Source: a virus. Taken from it: a stretch of DNA of 40,375 bases. Shown here piece after piece: positions 6,081 to 37,604 of this stretch. The translations under genes were made by a program, and so were the position numbers. The notes beneath the pieces were generated by a model. That model saw only the letters and a program-made list of their open reading frames with translations. It searched no databases and had not been told where the DNA came from. Where the stretch lies: the IMG/VR virus record IMGVR_UViG_3300028384_001363, positions 1-40,375 of that record; one strand, 5' to 3'. Each line of letters begins with the position of its first letter. Position 1 is the stretch's first letter.

Positions 6081-7100
6081 ATGGGACAACTTACACCTGA
6101 ATTCTTGTTTGACCTTGAGTCCAACATGCGGGTCATTTCAGCCAATGAATATCAGCGGCTAACTAGCAACCTGTGGTGGAACTTGATTGCCAAGCGCATG
6201 CCTTCGTCCGCGAAGAAAGAGCGCATTAACTGGCTTTTGGATTCCGCAAAAATTGAGCGCACCACCAAGGGTGGCGGCCAAGTTCCTTTTGAAGACGTGG
6301 TCATGCAAACGACCGAGTACGAAAATGAGAACGCTGCTGCCGGCCTTGAAATCAAGAAAGAGGAGTTTGAAGATCTTGACGGCAACGGTGTGCAGCTTGC
6401 AACCCACTGGTCACGCCAGATGGGTGCCTACGCAGCGTATTGGCCGCAGAAGGTCATCGCCAAAGCTATTCTTGCAAACGGCAACACCTACGACGGCCTT
6501 TCGTTTTTCAACGCGGCTCATCCAGTCAACCCGTTCAAAGCTTCCGCCGGAACCTTTGCAAACGACCTGACGGGTGCGGCAAACGGCATCTACCCAGGCG
6601 CCGTGCCAATTGGTGGGACCACTACGGTAGATGATGCGCTTGATAATCTTCGCAAAGTCATTGCCTATATTGCATCCATCAAAATGCCTAATGGCGAAGA
6701 TCCTCGCATGCTTCGAGTCAAACACATCTTCGTCCCGCCAAACCTTCTAAGTCGGGCGCAGCAGCTCACGGACGCCAAGTTGATTGCGCAAGCGACGTCT
6801 GGTGGCGGAGCGGCTTCGGCAGATGTGGCAGCCATTATCAGCGGCTTTGGCCTTGTGCCAGAGTTTGGCTCGGCCTTTGGCGGGTCGGACACCACGTATT
6901 ACATCGGCGTCGAAGAAATCACGACCAGCGAACTGGGTGCCTTTACCTACGTTGACCGTGAGCCCTTCAGCATCGTGATGCATGGCGAGATGACGGACGC
7001 ACAGCTTGCGCGCACGCGCGAGTTCCAGTGGACCACTGAGGGCCGCAACACGGTTGGCAACGGTCATCCGTACTTGCTGTTCCGCTGTCAGGGCACCTGA
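6081..7100 (+). CDS. Major capsid protein (Mu gpT-like)
   Basis: This 339-residue protein is the shell subunit. Its N-terminal half (LTPEFLFDLESNMRVISANE and WWNLIAKRMPSSAKKERINW) and the FFNAAHPVNPF segment near residue 145 read as the Mu gpT major-head family. The C-terminal YLLFRCQGT fits the end of that family. A strong AGAGAGAG purine tract precedes the ATG. Neighbours are the decoration protein before and connector genes after. The absence of an obvious delta domain agrees with a separate scaffold. I am confident of the family. Confidence 0.93.
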   Translation: MGQLTPEFLFDLESNMRVISANEYQRLTSNLWWNLIAKRMPSSAKKERINWLLDSAKIERTTKGGGQVPFEDVVMQTTEYENENAAAGLEIKKEEFEDLDGNGVQLATHWSRQMGAYAAYWPQKVIAKAILANGNTYDGLSFFNAAHPVNPFKASAGTFANDLTGAANGIYPGAVPIGGTTTVDDALDNLRKVIAYIASIKMPNGEDPRMLRVKHIFVPPNLLSRAQQLTDAKLIAQATSGGGAASADVAAIISGFGLVPEFGSAFGGSDTTYYIGVEEITTSELGAFTYVDREPFSIVMHGEMTDAQLARTREFQWTTEGRNTVGNGHPYLLFRCQGT

Positions 7101-17510: not shown

Positions 17511-18216
17511 TCAAGAGCGGCTAAGGTTTGAAACCTTTATTGTTCGCATCAGCCCGCCGTGGCTTCAGCGAACCGAGGGCGGCCGCCTTATGCGTGTGTT
17601 TGGCCGTGCGATTGATCGTTTGGTTGACGCTTCGACTCGGTCGATTTCGGTTAGGTTCCCGGGCTTGTTCTCGGATGCCTTGCAGTATATTGCTCGTGAT
17701 CGCAAGATATTCCGTGGTCCACGGGAAGGAGACACGTCGCTTGCCAATCGACAGCGTCGCTGGTGGCTATTGCACAAGGGCCGCGGCGGCCCTGTGCCAT
17801 TTTTAGAGCAGGCTTTTGACTACTGGCAGTATCTTGGTGCGCAGCTTGATTTGGTGTACGCAAATGGTGGCCGGGCGGTTGTGTCGGCGACTGGCGAGAT
17901 CACTAGGGATCGCATTAGCTGGAATCAGATCACAGCAGGTGAGTGGTCGGAATTCTGGTTTGTCTTTAACCTGGGCTCTGATCCTACAGGCCTGGCCAGC
18001 ACTGGTACAGTAGACCCAGTCCAGCTCGACAGCATGCGCCAGCTAATTCAGCAGTGGTCCCCAGCGCATATTTTGAACGCATATATTGTGTTGCTCTGGG
18101 ATGATTCGGAAGAGCTGTGGGGATACCCTGTGCCCGTGGGCGAGTGGGGCGAACTCGGCGACACGTGGGCTGCAGACCAGCCGTACCGTGAGATCTACAG
18201 ATTTGGGAGAAGCTGA
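17503..18216 (+). CDS. Tail protein I-like baseplate component (Mu gp48 position)
   Basis: A 237-residue protein after gpJ, where P2 gpI and Mu gp48 lie; these proteins connect the baseplate wedge to tail fibres. The central segment MRQLIQQWSPAHILNAYIVL matches the family's characteristic arrangement of an Arg/Lys-rich helix followed by P-A-H. The C-terminus is Trp-rich (GEWGELGDTW). It overlaps the gpJ-like gene by 8 bases. The call is supported by both motif and order. Confidence 0.8.
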   Translation: MPNQERLRFETFIVRISPPWLQRTEGGRLMRVFGRAIDRLVDASTRSISVRFPGLFSDALQYIARDRKIFRGPREGDTSLANRQRRWWLLHKGRGGPVPFLEQAFDYWQYLGAQLDLVYANGGRAVVSATGEITRDRISWNQITAGEWSEFWFVFNLGSDPTGLASTGTVDPVQLDSMRQLIQQWSPAHILNAYIVLLWDDSEELWGYPVPVGEWGELGDTWAADQPYREIYRFGRS

Positions 18217-30856: not shown

Positions 30857-31180
30857 ATGATGGCCCCCCTAGAGTCCGAGAACATTCCACGTCCCAAGTT
30901 TCGCAAAAACTCAGTGACGCTTGGGGTGTGGATCGCCGAGTTTAACCGGCTCATTGAAAAGCACACTGGGGGGCGCCGTCGAACCGGCGCGGTGCGAATC
31001 TTGGCGAGTGACTGTGGCTTGCAGTACAACACCGTATTGCATGCCGCGGCGGAAAATCGAAAGTGCTCCGCTGAATCAGCTTTGTTGATCAGCGACAACA
31101 CAGGTGGACAGGTGCCGTATCTGTACTTGGTCACCCCACTCGAGCGGCGCAGCGAATACGACTGGAACAAGCGTCGCTAA
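30857..31180 (+). CDS. Small basic DNA-binding-like protein
   Basis: A 107-residue protein at ATG 30857 (GAGG six bases upstream); TTG 30845 and ATG 30860 are alternatives. RTGAVRILASDCGLQYNTVL followed by HAAAENRKCSAESALLI resembles a helix-turn-helix. The C-terminus is basic. Last gene before a 418-base gap. It may be a replication or regulatory protein; no family is recognised. Confidence 0.58.
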   Translation: MMAPLESENIPRPKFRKNSVTLGVWIAEFNRLIEKHTGGRRRTGAVRILASDCGLQYNTVLHAAAENRKCSAESALLISDNTGGQVPYLYLVTPLERRSEYDWNKRR

Positions 31181-31598
31181 CGCTTGCGTTGGCAAAACAA
31201 TCCGATCCGAATGTCTCGCTCCAGGTGCCCTTGGGTCGATGAGCGAGGCGAGCGGCATAGCACACGGAAGCTTTTGGTTCGTCGGTGTTTGACGCAATCT
31301 ACCCGGATGCTTTGCGAGCTGCGAAACGCATGACATAGCCACTCGGCTTGGTGCAGTGCGCTGTTGCGGATATTGAAGCTGCTTTGAGCAGAGCCGAAAG
31401 CATAAGCATGCACGCTGCTGCGCGAGCGAATGACAACGGCTCCGGCATCAGGTTGCCCCGGGGCAAAAAATGTAAACAGCAATAGTGCGAATAGCATGTG
31501 ACGATGCTTTCGCGTGGGGCTGTCTTGGACAACAAAATAACTCTGAAGTCATAAAATGTTTCCACGGCTGTCACGTTATCGATAAGGTTGGAGGTCCG
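31181..31598. other. 418-base region without a convincing gene
   Basis: No reading frame here has both a ribosome site and protein-like composition. A 40-codon plus frame (31211-31333) and a 106-codon minus frame (31177-31497, with a hydrophobic start) lack ribosome sites and are Arg/Ser-rich. A GGAGG at 31590-31594 belongs to the primase gene. The region could hold a promoter, an origin element or a decayed gene; I see no strong repeats. Confidence 0.45.
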
Positions 31599-32429
31599 AT
31601 GTCAGACATGCTTGCGGGCGCACTCGCCCTTGCCAACGCCGGGCGCTTTGTTTTCCCAGTCCATCCCAACACTAAAGCGCCCCTTGTGGCCGGTGGGTTT
31701 AAGTCTGCGACCACGGACTTTGACCAGCTGCAGGATTGGTGGGAGAGGTTCCCCGATGCGAACATCGGCCTGGCTACCAGACCAAGCCGCTTGCTGGTGA
31801 TTGATATCGACCGCAAGAATGGCGTGGATGGAATGTTCGGTCTGGCAAAGGTGACGCTCAAATATAAGCGAGACCCTTTTAGGTATGCGCGCGAGGCACG
31901 CACCCCATCAGGCGGCCATCATTTATACTTCAACGATCCCGGTGGGGTCAGCCCATCCCAAGGCAAGTTTGGAAAGCATAACTGTCCGGGTGTAGACATT
32001 CGCGCCGGCGAATCGTGCATCACGGTGCCGCCTTCGGCGGGCTACGAATGGGCCAACAAACATCCCGTGGGCGACTTGCCAGATGAGCTTATTGAGCCGC
32101 TGCAATGGCAGCCTGACGATACCTTTTCGCTCTCCCGCGCTCCGTGGCTCGCATCAAATGAGCGCACTACCTCTCAGTCGGTCGCCTACTCAATGGCGAC
32201 ACTAAGGCATGCGCGTGGGCGCGTGGCATCGGCTGGCCCTGGACAGCGTAACGCACAGCTATTCAAGGAGGCCGCTACCTTGGGAGAATTTATCCGCTCG
32301 GGATCTTTGGGCATGCAACAGGTAGTCGACGAGTTGCTAGGAGCCTGTGATGAAAACGGCCTGCTCAAAGAAGGCAAGAAAAGCTGTCTCAAAACAATTG
32401 AGAGTGGCTTGAAAGCGAGTGCCAAGTGA
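31599..32429 (+). CDS. Prim-pol type DNA primase/polymerase
   Basis: A 276-residue protein of the bifunctional primase-polymerase family. LANAGRFVFPVHPNTKAPLV with later FPDANIGLATRPSRLLVIDI gives the metal ligands D69 and D71. GGHHLYF follows, and GVDIRAGESCITVPPSAG supplies the third acidic residue D133. It would synthesise replication primers. ATG 31599 is chosen because of GGAGG just upstream; the earlier in-frame start is unsupported. The GTGA overlap with an ATPase gene mirrors prim-pol/helicase fusions in other phages, here split. Confidence 0.87.
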   Translation: MSDMLAGALALANAGRFVFPVHPNTKAPLVAGGFKSATTDFDQLQDWWERFPDANIGLATRPSRLLVIDIDRKNGVDGMFGLAKVTLKYKRDPFRYAREARTPSGGHHLYFNDPGGVSPSQGKFGKHNCPGVDIRAGESCITVPPSAGYEWANKHPVGDLPDELIEPLQWQPDDTFSLSRAPWLASNERTTSQSVAYSMATLRHARGRVASAGPGQRNAQLFKEAATLGEFIRSGSLGMQQVVDELLGACDENGLLKEGKKSCLKTIESGLKASAK

Positions 32430-33238
32430 AAGAGGATGACTTTGCATCACGCAAAAATAAGGTTGCTCAAGATGGTTGGTCCGGTGACATCGCCGACCTG
32501 TTTGACATGGACTTGCCCGAGCCCAGGGCAATGGGTGCGATTGCAGACATCCCAATCACCCAAGGCGAGAAAGTCATGGTTTACGGCCCAAGCGGCTCGA
32601 AGAAGACTTTGTTCACGTACCATTGGGCACTAAGCCACATCAAAGATGGCGGGCGAGGACTGCTCTTGCAGGGCGAGGGCAACTTGCCTGCATTTAAGAA
32701 ACGCCTGATGAAACTGTGGCGCGGGATGTCGTCGGACTCGCTGCCTACCGGCAAGCTATACGGCAAGTGGAAGGCTTTTGACATCGTGCAATACGCCGAG
32801 GTCTATCGATTTTTTGTTGATGAGGCTAAGCCTGATTTCGTTGTGCTCGACACGATGAATTTGTTTTCACCGGCGAACGAGAACGACGTCATGGAAGTGA
32901 CCAAGTTCCTGGAGGTGTCAGCTTACGCCGTCGACAAGGGCGCCACCCTTGTGCTGGTGACTCACTCATCCAAGAGTGGTGAGCGAGGCAAGCTTGTGGA
33001 GCGAGGCAGCTCGGCTATTAGAGGATGGGCTGATAGCAGTATATGCATTGAACCCATCGACAAGATCGACAGCGGACCGGTGATGGTGAGCCACGTCAAG
33101 TGTCGGGATGGCGCGCGGAGCAAAGCTCGCACGCTTAATTGGGAATTTGAGGCGGACCGGTACTATTACACCGAGCAAGCCGAGCACGGCCAATCCGAGT
33201 ACACCAAAGTAACCAGCATTATGGCTGGAAAGCCCTAG
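32426..33238 (+). CDS. RepA-like AAA ATPase (replicative helicase candidate)
   Basis: A 270-residue RecA-fold ATPase starting at GTG. The Walker A is YGPSGSKKT (residues 53-61), with Lys at the position before the catalytic K where Gly is usual. Walker B is DFVVLDTM with D142. A sensor-like LVLVTHSSKSG follows, then RGWADSSICI. This fits the AAA_25/RepA group that works with prim-pol primases. It ends three bases before a convergent lipoprotein gene, with no visible terminator between. Confidence 0.82.
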   Translation: MKEDDFASRKNKVAQDGWSGDIADLFDMDLPEPRAMGAIADIPITQGEKVMVYGPSGSKKTLFTYHWALSHIKDGGRGLLLQGEGNLPAFKKRLMKLWRGMSSDSLPTGKLYGKWKAFDIVQYAEVYRFFVDEAKPDFVVLDTMNLFSPANENDVMEVTKFLEVSAYAVDKGATLVLVTHSSKSGERGKLVERGSSAIRGWADSSICIEPIDKIDSGPVMVSHVKCRDGARSKARTLNWEFEADRYYYTEQAEHGQSEYTKVTSIMAGKP

Positions 33239-33241
33239 AGC

Positions 33242-33487
33242 TTACTCCGCAGACACTTGGGCAGGAGCGCATGCCTCTAAGGCATCGGCGCAATAAAAGT
33301 CGCCCATGGGGCAGGTGGGCTCACACTCGGGAGCCTCGAGCTGCTCTCCTGCAAAGTCATAGACACAGGCAAAACGGCCCTGGGTTTCAACCACCCACGC
33401 TTTGGCGCAGTGATCTTCAATGGTAGAAACATTGTTGGCGCAACCCACGGTTGCCACAGCGAGCAAAATAAATCCCAAAATCTTCAT
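33242..33487 (-). CDS. Small Cys-rich lipoprotein
   Basis: An 81-residue minus-strand protein. ATG 33487 follows GGGAG by seven bases. The signal peptide MKILGFILLAVATVGC ends in a slightly atypical lipobox (TVGC; Thr at -3). The mature chain has six further Cys, C27, C41, C55, C59, C66 and C73, the first three exactly 14 residues apart. Cys-rich phage lipoproteins can mask receptors against superinfection; that is a possibility only. Its operator-like palindrome lies just upstream. Confidence 0.68.
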   Translation of the reverse strand: MKILGFILLAVATVGCANNVSTIEDHCAKAWVVETQGRFACVYDFAGEQLEAPECEPTCPMGDFYCADALEACAPAQVSAE

Positions 33488-33503
33488 CGCAATCTCCCTT
33501 GTG

Positions 33504-33521
33504 TATGACTTGCAAGTCATA
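33504..33521. promoter_or_regulatory. 18-base perfect palindrome upstream of the lipoprotein gene (motif copy A)
   Basis: TATGACTTGCAAGTCATA is a perfect inverted repeat lying 17 bases before the minus-strand lipoprotein start. Read on the minus strand it is preceded by ATCAA, as in copy B at 33660. It fits a dimer-binding operator overlapping the promoter. Confidence 0.6.
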
Positions 33522-33562
33522 TTGATATAGTAGCTAATCAAGGGTGCGGTGCAAATAAAAAA

Positions 33563-33597
33563 GGAGGTGCAATTAGCTGGCGGCTAACCACACCTCC
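33563..33597 (-). terminator. Rho-independent terminator for minus-strand transcription
   Basis: On the minus strand a hairpin GGAGGTG...CACCTCC (33591-33597 with 33563-33569), extended by TTAGC/GCTAA (33573-33577 with 33583-33587), is followed by six T (33557-33562). It would stop leftward transcripts coming from the region to its right before they reach the lipoprotein gene. On the plus strand no T-run follows. Confidence 0.75.
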
Positions 33598-33653
33598 CCA
33601 CCTCAAGCAAGGGAGATTGCTCCTGGCAATATCACTTTCTCATCGTTTACCCC

Positions 33654-33690
33654 TTGCATCAATATGCTTCGCAACGCACACTTATAACAC
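33654..33690 (+). promoter_or_regulatory. Promoter/operator motif copy B
   Basis: TTGCAT followed by CAATATGCTTCGCAACGCAC and ACTTATAACAC. The block aligns with copy C at 33912-33948 without gaps. TATAAC (33683-33688) may act as a -10. The ATG of the next gene is 47 bases after the start of the motif. Function inferred from repetition and position. Confidence 0.55.
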
Positions 33691-33700
33691 GGAGGTAAGG

Positions 33701-33892
33701 ATGAACATAAGCCAAAAGGATATGGATGATTTGGGGGATGAGATTGCGCACTGGATTGCACGGATGTCTCAGTGCATGGCAGCGCTCTCAGTGACCAAGC
33801 CGAACCCGGCTGCCTATGTGGCTGCTATTGAGTTTCGCAATGATCTTATGAGCGCAGTTGCAGCCCTCGAAGTCGCGGTGCAAAAAAAGTGA
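33701..33892 (+). CDS. Small helical protein, unknown
   Basis: A 63-residue protein. ATG 33701 is preceded by GGAGGTAAGG, a strong ribosome site, and by motif copy B. The sequence is helical throughout (MDDLGDEIAHWIARMSQCMA, AAIEFRNDLMSAVAALEVAV) and might form a bundle or dimer. No signal or membrane segment. Not recognised; the strong initiation region suggests high early expression. Confidence 0.62.
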   Translation: MNISQKDMDDLGDEIAHWIARMSQCMAALSVTKPNPAAYVAAIEFRNDLMSAVAALEVAVQKK

Positions 33893-33911
33893 TCTGGCTT
33901 TGTTTTTTATG

Positions 33912-33949
33912 TTGCATGAGTATGACTCGCGACGCATACTAATAGCATG
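33912..33949 (+). promoter_or_regulatory. Promoter/operator motif copy C
   Basis: TTGCAT followed by GAGTATGACTCGCGACGCAT and ACTAATAGCATG. About three quarters of positions match copy B. AGTATG (33919-33924) and CATACT (33935-33940) form an inverted repeat. The next ribosome site and ATG 33965 follow at a similar distance to copy B. Confidence 0.55.
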
Positions 33950-33964
33950 ACTGAGGGGGAAAAC

Positions 33965-34162
33965 ATGACGAACTCGCAGATTGTACCGAAGCCAAACGGA
34001 TTTGCTCTTGCCTACATTGAGAGCATCAAAGCCTTGGGCAGCCTTCGGCCAGCTGCCGTGCCCAATCAAAACTTTGATGGGCTGTACGCAGCTATTGAGC
34101 AGGAGAGCCGCCGCAACGCGGGGACCGTGCGCCCACCTAAGCGCACGCGCAAGGCAGGCTAA
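33965..34162 (+). CDS. Small basic protein, unknown
   Basis: A 65-residue protein. ATG 33965 is chosen over 33947 because GAGGGGG lies eight bases upstream. Its C-terminus is basic (RRNAGTVRPPKRTRKAG), as in nucleic-acid-binding proteins; the middle has YIESIKALGSLRPAAVPNQN. It is preceded by motif copy C. Function unknown. Confidence 0.58.
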   Translation: MTNSQIVPKPNGFALAYIESIKALGSLRPAAVPNQNFDGLYAAIEQESRRNAGTVRPPKRTRKAG

Positions 34163-34203
34163 GCCGCACTGACAAGCAACCAAAAGCAAGGGAGACAAAA
34201 AAG

Positions 34204-34539
34204 ATGGAAACGAGCGAATCATTTCGAGCGATTGAATCGGCTCTGGCATCAGGGGGCTTGAGCCCCCACCAGCTAGACTTAGCCATGTCGCATTTGGTCG
34301 CGATGACCAGGCGACTAAAGCGGCTGGAGTCTTACCTGTCAGACTCCCAGGGCTTGAGTTATCAAGCGGCGCAGGATTTGCGAGGCAACGCCGGAGCCAC
34401 TGGAGCAACTGTGGCTGGTCGACCGCGGCGCCGCATGCCCGCGGCCGACAGTCACGTCACTAGGGCCGGAACCATCGATGATATGCCCACGATGGCCACG
34501 CCCACTCCATGGCCCGTGCGCCAAGCGAGGCGGCGATGA
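34204..34539 (+). CDS. Small helical protein with basic tail, unknown
   Basis: A 111-residue protein with AAGGGAGA upstream of the ATG. Residues 5-65 are helical (LDLAMSHLVAMTRRLKRLES); the remaining half is Arg/Pro/Thr-rich and probably disordered (AGRPRRRMPAADSHV). It overlaps the next gene in ATGA. No family recognised; may bind nucleic acid. Confidence 0.55.
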   Translation: METSESFRAIESALASGGLSPHQLDLAMSHLVAMTRRLKRLESYLSDSQGLSYQAAQDLRGNAGATGATVAGRPRRRMPAADSHVTRAGTIDDMPTMATPTPWPVRQARRR

Positions 34540-35013: not shown

Positions 35014-35271
35014 GTGAAATCCAAGATTAAGCAGGCAAAGATCGAAGCGTGGGCGGTGATGCGCAATGGCATCAAAAAGCATCTTGGCATTGATGCTCCG
35101 CCCGAACTCGAACTGACATTTGCCAATGCGCTGACGGTGTTTTTGGCCGAAGGCCAGCTACGCGAGAGCTTTGTCGAAGAGGTTGGCGATGCAATAAGGC
35201 TCGCCAGAGAGAGGGCCGAAAGAAGGGAGAAAAGCTATGGCGAAAGTAACAAAGAAGGTGGCACTGATTAG
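35014..35271 (+). CDS. Small charged helical protein, unknown
   Basis: An 85-residue protein starting at GTG 35014 with only a weak GGGG upstream. Basic helical start (MKSKIKQAKIEAWAVMRNGI), FANALTVFLAEGQLRESFVE, then a very charged end (ARERAERREKSYGE). Its last 35 bases overlap the next gene's start. No function recognised. Confidence 0.52.
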   Translation: MKSKIKQAKIEAWAVMRNGIKKHLGIDAPPELELTFANALTVFLAEGQLRESFVEEVGDAIRLARERAERREKSYGESNKEGGTD

Positions 35272-36072: not shown

Positions 36073-36499
36073 ATTCCCTCAAGACCCCGTGGCCAAGCTC
36101 CCACATGGCCTTGTCGATGAGGCCGGGTTCGTACCTATACACAAACACATCTGTGCGTGGGTTTGAGCGGTCTACGTATTTACAAAGCAGCTCGCATGCG
36201 ACCTGAGAGTCATCGATCCAGACAATGCCTGTCATGCCGTCCTTGACTCCCTTGACCAAGTTATCAAGGTCGCGCCGAGTGCGGTCCTTAAGCCAGAATT
36301 GACACACCAGCGTCAAAGCCTCGGCGCTTGGGTACTCGCGATTTGCTCCAACAGCTTGCCGTGAGACCCAGCCCACAAGCTCCTTGAAGTCCTTGGTCCG
36401 CTTGGGTGTATACCACTGCCTACCGTCGCTCCTAGCCCGCTGGCAGGGCACCGGTGGCCCCGGGATCGTAAACCTAAGCATGACCTTGCCCGAGGCCAT
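36071..36499 (-). CDS. rusA: RusA-like Holliday junction resolvase
   Basis: A 142-residue endonuclease that cuts recombination junctions to resolve branched DNA before packaging. The family signature DLDNLVKGVKDGMTGIVWID is present with D-L-D-N and the paired acids of IDDSQV. The N-terminus FTIPGPPVPCQRARSDG is also typical of RusA. ATG 36499 is preferred because AAGGGG lies six bases upstream; ATG 36523 is an alternative. It is last in a minus operon with two small genes. Confidence 0.92.
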   Translation of the reverse strand: MASGKVMLRFTIPGPPVPCQRARSDGRQWYTPKRTKDFKELVGWVSRQAVGANREYPSAEALTLVCQFWLKDRTRRDLDNLVKGVKDGMTGIVWIDDSQVACELLCKYVDRSNPRTDVFVYRYEPGLIDKAMWELGHGVLRE

Positions 36500-36528: not shown

Positions 36529-36759
36529 CTATCTGACACTTTTGCTGTAATCATAGCCCACCCAGAACTTGGCTTTGCGATCCTTGGCAATGGCTTTGCC
36601 AAAAGACTCGGCGACCATTTTGGTGCGAAATCGCTCCTCATAGAGCAGGCTGTTGCCACGATAAACCCGCACGCGACTGGTGCCATTGCTTGGCTCCACA
36701 ACCACTCGAGACACCTCGCCTAAGTTACGCGTGATGTTTTGCATGTTTATTGGCTCCAA
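36529..36759 (-). CDS. Small beta-rich protein, unknown
   Basis: A 76-residue minus-strand protein. The TTG at 36759 is chosen because GGAGGT lies five bases upstream on the minus strand, inside the preceding gene; the first ATG (36744) is too far from it. Strand-rich (VSRVVVEPSNGTSRVRVYRG, NSLLYEERFRTKM) with a C-terminal AKFWVGYDYSKSV. Not recognised; lies between an RHH regulator and rusA. Confidence 0.62.
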   Translation of the reverse strand: MEPINMQNITRNLGEVSRVVVEPSNGTSRVRVYRGNSLLYEERFRTKMVAESFGKAIAKDRKAKFWVGYDYSKSVR

Positions 36760-36917
36760 TCTGCACCTCCCCTGGCCTCGGCGTTGGCCAAAACAACCCC
36801 CAGAGCCTGTCGGATGTAGACGGCCATGGGAATCATCGTCCGCTGAGACAGCGCCTTGAGAGCCTCATACTGCTCGGGGTCAAGGTAGACCGTCACACTC
36901 TCTTTTCGGCGTGGCAC
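36747..36917 (-). CDS. Ribbon-helix-helix (CopG/Arc-type) regulator
   Basis: A 56-residue minus-strand protein read from GTG 36917: MPRRKESVTVYLDPEQYEAL then KALSQRTMIPMAVYIRQALG. The pattern, a short basic strand (SVTVYL) followed by two helices, is the classic RHH fold that binds DNA as a dimer through the strand. No clear ribosome site precedes the GTG. It overlaps the next gene by 13 bases. A perfect AGTCATGACT palindrome and CATGAC direct repeats lie just upstream, so autoregulation is likely. Confidence 0.75.
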   Translation of the reverse strand: MPRRKESVTVYLDPEQYEALKALSQRTMIPMAVYIRQALGVVLANAEARGGADWSQ

Positions 36918-37604
36918 TGCATGACAGTACGCTAGTCATGACTCTCAAGGCAACCTTAACCCGTCACCAAGCCCGGTGAGATATGGGGCGTTCCGCATCT
37001 CAATGTGCCAACTCTGGCCTAAACGCAAATAGTGTGACTCCACTAACACACTGAACAAAACATATGGTCACCAACTTTGTTTGCAATGATTCCGGGCACT
37101 TGAAATTTTCAGGGTTGCGTATCAAATGGATTTCCCCCCCTTATACCCCCCGGGTATTTGGCAATTTGCAATTTTGTTAATTGATCCCGGCGCCATTGGG
37201 CCCGTTTCAATTTTTGGCGCCTGTCAGTTGAGGGCCAACAAGAGGCGGAATCCTGTGAGGATTTCGCCGGCCTCTCAATGTTGCTTATGGGCGCAATTCA
37301 GCCATCGGGGGGCGATGGTCTGGGGCCCACACCCCCCTGGCTGATACGTCTGCCCCTCAATTGAGGGCTTTGGGGTAAAAGGGAGGGGGGAGGAGGCGTC
37401 TCCGTACCCCTCCCCCATAGAGCAAGATGCCCAGATATTTGAGGCAGCTGAGGGGGCAGTGCCCAGCTAGGGGCGCCTAGGTAAATTAATAAACAATTGG
37501 GCTCTACTTTTCGTCGCCAAGCCAATTGTAAGGATAGGCTCGGCTTGAATACGGAATAATTAATTAAATGTGCCAATTGCCGTAGTTAGCTCACGGGGGT
37601 ACTT
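36918..37604. other. 687-base non-coding region, possible replication origin/control region
   Basis: No convincing gene lies here; frames present are Pro/Gly-rich shadows. It starts with the RHH operator area (AGTCATGACT at 36934-36943). Long C-tracts and G-tracts follow, with four G-runs from 37365 to 37390 (loops of 4, 5 and 1 bases) that could fold as a G-quadruplex, and a GGGGGAGG/CCCCTCCCCC hairpin. CAATTG, CCAATT and CAATTT words recur across 37155-37580, with CCTCAATTGAGG as a palindrome near 37355. AT-rich blocks lie at 37480-37570. Origin function is inference. Confidence 0.5.
36920..36943. promoter_or_regulatory. Probable operator of the RHH operon
   Basis: The palindrome AGTCATGACT (36934-36943) and two CATGAC words starting at 36920 and 36937 (17 bases apart) lie directly upstream of the RHH start. 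RHH dimers bind such short repeats. ATGACT half-sites also occur in motif copies A and C. Confidence 0.5.

Follow-up and report, generated by a model that had tools for sequence, protein, structure and literature searches.

Three copies of one 18-bp dyad, TATGNNTYGCRANNCAYA, precede three small genes in a 40,375-bp phage contig, the whole of which was analysed and is referred to here as the window. The copies are very probably operators for some repressor that is encoded by the phage or belongs to its phage group. Sequence comparisons favor, with a probability of about 0.58, a phage-specific operator set bound by a dimeric repressor, for which the Cro/YdaS-like HTH protein encoded at 30857-31180 (plus strand) is the most likely candidate. 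The device is most likely of a known kind in an unusual place, and the set is notable because a CI partner is missing and because, across the group to which the phage belongs, dyads appear to be specific to each phage.

The dyad of copy A (33504-33521, minus strand; 16 nt upstream of the ATG of an oppositely transcribed lipoprotein gene) is perfectly palindromic over all 18 bp (TATGACTTGCAAGTCATA), as a sequence-only reading had described, and no other perfect palindrome of at least 18 bp occurs in the window. Copies B (33663-33680, plus strand; TATGCTTCGCAACGCACA) and C (33921-33938, plus strand; TATGACTCGCGACGCATA) are imperfect dyads that lie 20 nt upstream of the ATG at 33701 and 26 nt upstream of the ATG at 33965, respectively. 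The earlier reading was right that one motif recurs at three gene starts and that A shares sequence with B (ATCAATATG, minus strand, is common to both), but it did not recognize B and C as imperfect versions of the dyad in A. A TYGCRA center and TATG ends are conserved in all copies. The copies are separated by 159 and 258 bp, with one copy per gene start.

The likeness among the copies is far above chance. B and C align without gaps from TTGCAT through to ATAnCA, as previously claimed, with 28 of 36 positions identical, a level that 300 dinucleotide shuffles of these regions never reached; A and C agree at 21 of 28 positions (0 of 300 shuffles as good), and the combined score for three-way similarity and palindromy reaches 44, whereas 1000 shuffles of the upstream regions gave at most 38. 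Several copies of one dyad of 14-18 bp, as looked for in an operator set, are therefore present. The motif search that had been proposed for the whole phage and its relatives returned three sites in the window and a similar dyad in one relative (G010, described below). Within the window, TATGNNTYGCRANNCAYA is matched exactly at 33504, 33663, and 33921, and every other site has at least 2 mismatches. A symmetrised matrix gives the three copies scores of 26.2, 25.3, and 21.6 and the next best window site 13.4, although this matrix was derived from the three sites themselves, so that fairer evidence comes from the shuffle tests and from comparing other genomes.

The genes behind the copies are a small predicted lipoprotein with a VGC lipobox (33242-33487, minus strand; ATG at 33487), gene B (33701-33892, plus strand; 63 a.a.), and gene C (33965-34162, plus strand; 65 a.a.), none of which has a Pfam or PHROG match. 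No relatives of these three proteins, or of the helicase and primase proteins, were found in IMG/VR. The strong ribosome sites previously noted behind B and C are GGAGG and GAGGGGG, respectively, and the lipoprotein ATG is preceded by AAGGGAG. A hairpin formed by copy A would adjoin this ribosome site, and an inverted 13-bp copy of the site lies nearby, so that the repeats could be RNA hairpins in 5′ leaders, or remnants of duplicated leader DNA. This is extremely unlikely, as the B and C dyads form weak stems, Rfam returned no match in 33200-34250, and the dyads of G010 occur in arrays and upstream of different genes. The 13-bp block itself, CAAGGGAGATTGC, covers the lipoprotein ribosome site at 33489-33501 (minus strand) and recurs once on the opposite strand at 33608-33620 (plus strand), 107 bp away; a leftward RNA from the latter would be perfectly complementary to that ribosome site over 13 nt. 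A strong minus-strand hairpin resembling an intrinsic terminator (33561-33599; 17 pairs followed by a T-run) lies immediately upstream of the promoter region of the lipoprotein gene and may either insulate it from leftward read-through or mark where a short leftward RNA ends.

Candidate promoters for genes B and C can be read directly from the DNA at 33654-33682 (TTGCAT, 17 bp, CACACT; weak) and 33912-33940 (TTGCAT, 17 bp, CATACT), both on the plus strand and each overlapped by its dyad. The TTGCAT boxes stand at 33654 and 33912 as had been reported, 3 nt before the dyad in both cases, and CACACT and CATACT overlap its right end. We infer this placement because no site in the region of the copies passes a strict sigma-70 consensus; the two TTGCAT-17-CAYACT arrangements might act as weak sigma-70 promoters over which the dyad lies. 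The sequence-only reading had judged the spacing from TTGCAT to the −10 box too long for ordinary sigma-70, a view that does not hold since a 17-bp spacer reaches CACACT in B and CATACT in C. The −10 element it had chosen, TATAAC at 33683-33688, was rejected, as transcription from it would begin around position 33694, within or beyond the ribosome site (GGAGG) that precedes gene B.

The earlier interpretation thus survives in part: one regulatory motif is shared by the three gene starts, is specific to the phage and recurs in a relative. Its argument for an activator or special sigma factor is not supported, and neither is needed because TTGCAT with a 17-bp spacing reaches CAYACT, which the dyad overlaps. 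The copies are thus very unlikely to be activator sites or phage-specific promoter elements. The likeness of B and C beyond the dyad (the 28 of 36 positions include TTGCAT and ATAnCA) and the lack of a consensus sigma-70 promoter are consistent with such elements; on the other hand, the dyads of relatives lie at cro/ci-like genes, and a dyad over the spacer and the start of the −10 box is in the usual position of a repressor operator. We infer repression rather than activation, as well as the transcription starts. A dimeric Cro-like repressor would bind the 18-bp dyad, blocking the leftward lipoprotein promoter at A and, at B and C, the pair of promoters that face rightward into the small-gene cluster, in each case by covering the promoter or the start point just upstream of the ribosome site.

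The proposed binder is encoded between ssb-like and primase genes, within the replication gene cluster and 2.3 kb from the copies. The protein alone has no Pfam match; however, an alignment of it with nine relatives (10 members) matches, as a profile, the YdaS/Cro protein of CP-933P in the PDB (8co2, E-value 4e-7), and the same profile matches 8c7k (E-value 3.6e-6). Its predicted structure (mean pLDDT 86) matches 8co2 in Foldseek with a probability of 1.00, with an E-value of only 0.055. The phage thus encodes an HTH protein of the CI/Cro repressor class, which is presumed to be a dimer. Directly downstream of its gene, the primase-polymerase and helicase functions are carried by two adjacent genes (31485-33238).

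A second candidate binder is the Arc-like ribbon-helix-helix (RHH) protein encoded at 36747-36917 (minus strand), which matches RHH_3 (6e-15) and an Arc-like repressor in PHROG. P22 Arc/Mnt-type RHH operators consist of inverted short half-sites at a spacing of about 11 bp, and the window resembles them in having an Arc-like protein and inverted short half-sites at a similar spacing. Two RHH dimers could occupy inverted ATGAC half-sites in the dyad: the sole inverted TATGAC pair of the window lies in copy A, and the only cluster of three ATGAC within 22 bp (36920-36943) directly precedes the RHH gene, which suggests an autoregulation site for the RHH protein. Nevertheless, copy B lacks ATGAC, the conserved part of the dyad being the TYGCRA center and the TATG ends, and a search of 17 relatives found RHH_3 in none of them, not even in G010, which has the motif. 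The half-site is not in all copies and the motif does not travel with the RHH gene, so that the RHH protein is an unlikely reader of the dyad. Both RHH and HTH proteins had been put forward as binders; the comparative evidence favors the Cro-like HTH protein.

G010 (IMGVR_UViG_3300024290_000007), a related temperate phage, stands out among 48 records searched. Its dyad, TATGNCTYGCRAGNCATA, is nearly the same as that of the window, with C or T rather than A at position 5. Sites with one mismatch lie at 17927, 17994, and 18069, within 160 bp, and a site with two mismatches at 6419; a matrix scan finds about 10 sites in all. The cluster of three lies between an integrase-like gene and an HTH_17 excisionase-like gene, and a second cluster, of two more sites, between divergent Cro-like and HTH_3 genes. 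The former gene was called tyrosine-integrase-like from reading its sequence, with no match to PF00589. G010 differs from the window in its array, with about 10 sites at int/xis and cro/ci-like promoters as against three before small genes, and the recognition helices of the two Cro-like proteins are not obviously alike.

Members of the Cro/YdaS-like HTH family were found in 11 relatives, and G010 has a more distant one. The gene is divergent from an HTH_3 (CI-like) gene in eight relatives and also adjoins the primase in G030 and G047. Four relatives carry an 18-bp dyad of their own, different from that of the window and often with TAT and ATA ends, both upstream of the Cro-like gene and elsewhere: G012 has four sites of the TATACGGTCGAGCGTATA family (35026, 35042, 36224, and 36241), G032 four (42671, 42687, 35997, and 31977), G047 (L162) five (17001, 17018, 15275, 15292, and 9991), and G036 three (45598, 45695, and 35138). 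The region upstream of the Cro-like gene outscored 60 of 60 shuffles in each of these four phages and in G010. Tandem pairs of dyads, 16-17 bp apart, occur in L162 (15275-15309 and 17001-17035) and G012 (35026-35059 and 36224-36258), upstream of the Cro-like genes and at second places. No significant dyad family was found upstream of the Cro-like gene in G001, G007, G020, G025, G030, or G037, and G027 has a weak ATGATGAGAACATCAT pair only. An unrestricted search of the relatives for repeated palindromes gave mostly GC-rich coding noise, while a search confined either to DNA likely to be intergenic or to the stretch preceding the Cro-like gene succeeded; a simple gene caller was unreliable in GC-rich DNA and its intergenic labels were not relied on. 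These data suggest a group pattern in which a conserved Cro-like gene is accompanied by a different 18-bp dyad in each phage. If this pattern holds, immunity types could be read from sequence.

The Cro-like protein is preferred as the binder because dyads accompany this gene family in the relatives. Operators usually, though not universally, lie beside the repressor gene or in its promoter, as in G010, G012, G032, G036, and G047; unlike in these relatives, no dyad lies upstream of the Cro-like gene of the window. The window also encodes neither an integrase nor a CI-like partner and hence lacks the divergent ci/cro pair and integrase of a temperate immunity region, both of which are present in many relatives. 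The dyads of the relatives are perhaps read chiefly by the CI-like partner, a point against the Cro-like protein. The dyad could then be the target of a CI-like repressor that was lost, lies in an unsequenced end, or is supplied by a resident G010-like prophage. The Cro-like and divergent HTH_3 pair in eight relatives and the nearly identical dyad of G010 are consistent with such a repressor, as are the lack of a terminal repeat in the contig and its length, 1-6 kb below that of most long relatives. However, the contig shares its approximate starting point, ahead of the terminase genes, with many relatives (about 6 kb separate the capsid gene from the end) and may therefore be complete, yet it has no CI or integrase gene; a missing CI-like reader is accordingly rather improbable.

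Among the characterized systems closest to the proposed Cro-like repressor and its operators is the PaaR2/YdaS immunity region of CP-933P from E. coli O157:H7, in which YdaS and PaaR2 act on a regulatory region whose promoters are overlain by four 18-bp palindromes (PMC8630535). As at the candidate promoters of the window, 18-bp palindromes lie at phage promoters, which are divergent in CP-933P, and the HTH protein of the window is homologous to the regulator, a YdaS-type Cro (PMC8630535). The half-site differs, being GTTTAGTAA in CP-933P, and the CP-933P operators lie between two regulator genes, whereas those of the window lie before small genes and without a CI-like partner. By analogy, a dimeric phage repressor most likely represses the genes behind the copies in the way that YdaS/PaaR2 does. 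The OR and OL regions of lambda, which are bound by CI and Cro, likewise contain a small number of imperfect repeats of a dyad of 17-18 bp, and these overlap promoters in lambda (PMC8630535). In contrast, the copies of the window are 159 and 258 bp apart and stand one per gene start rather than packed in threes, and no lysogeny genes were found in the window.

One tentative scenario is that the integrase and the CI half of the switch were lost, while a lone Cro-type repressor was kept and its operators were re-deployed at the lipoprotein gene and the small early genes. If true, the phage would be a lytic member of a temperate group, with early genes that could be controlled by prophages having the same operator, such as G010-like ones. 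For a little-studied group of phages of Myxococcota, the set supplies an operator sequence together with a candidate repressor, and their binding can be tested simply.

The relatives were found via structural genes only, and no match at the DNA level was found in phage records. The capsid protein has kin at 80 loci in IMG/VR (42-79% identity) and two matches in Polyangia genome assemblies (Polyangiaceae bacterium and Labilithrix sp.), for which reason the host is probably a soil myxobacterium (Myxococcota). These two assemblies, which hold related phage genes and total 20 Mb, contain no match to the dyad with up to 1 mismatch, and this absence argues against a box for a host regulator. Whole-collection scans with the palindrome gave 30 and 12 scattered single matches and no clusters, no more than chance by a rough estimate of collection size. 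At the left end of the window, a 16-bp perfect palindrome, CCTCTAACGTTAGAGG, lies at 21-36 before a terS-like gene and may belong to the packaging end. The protein encoded at 85-855, before the large terminase, has no Pfam match and a possible N-terminal helix-turn-helix, and is probably the small terminase.
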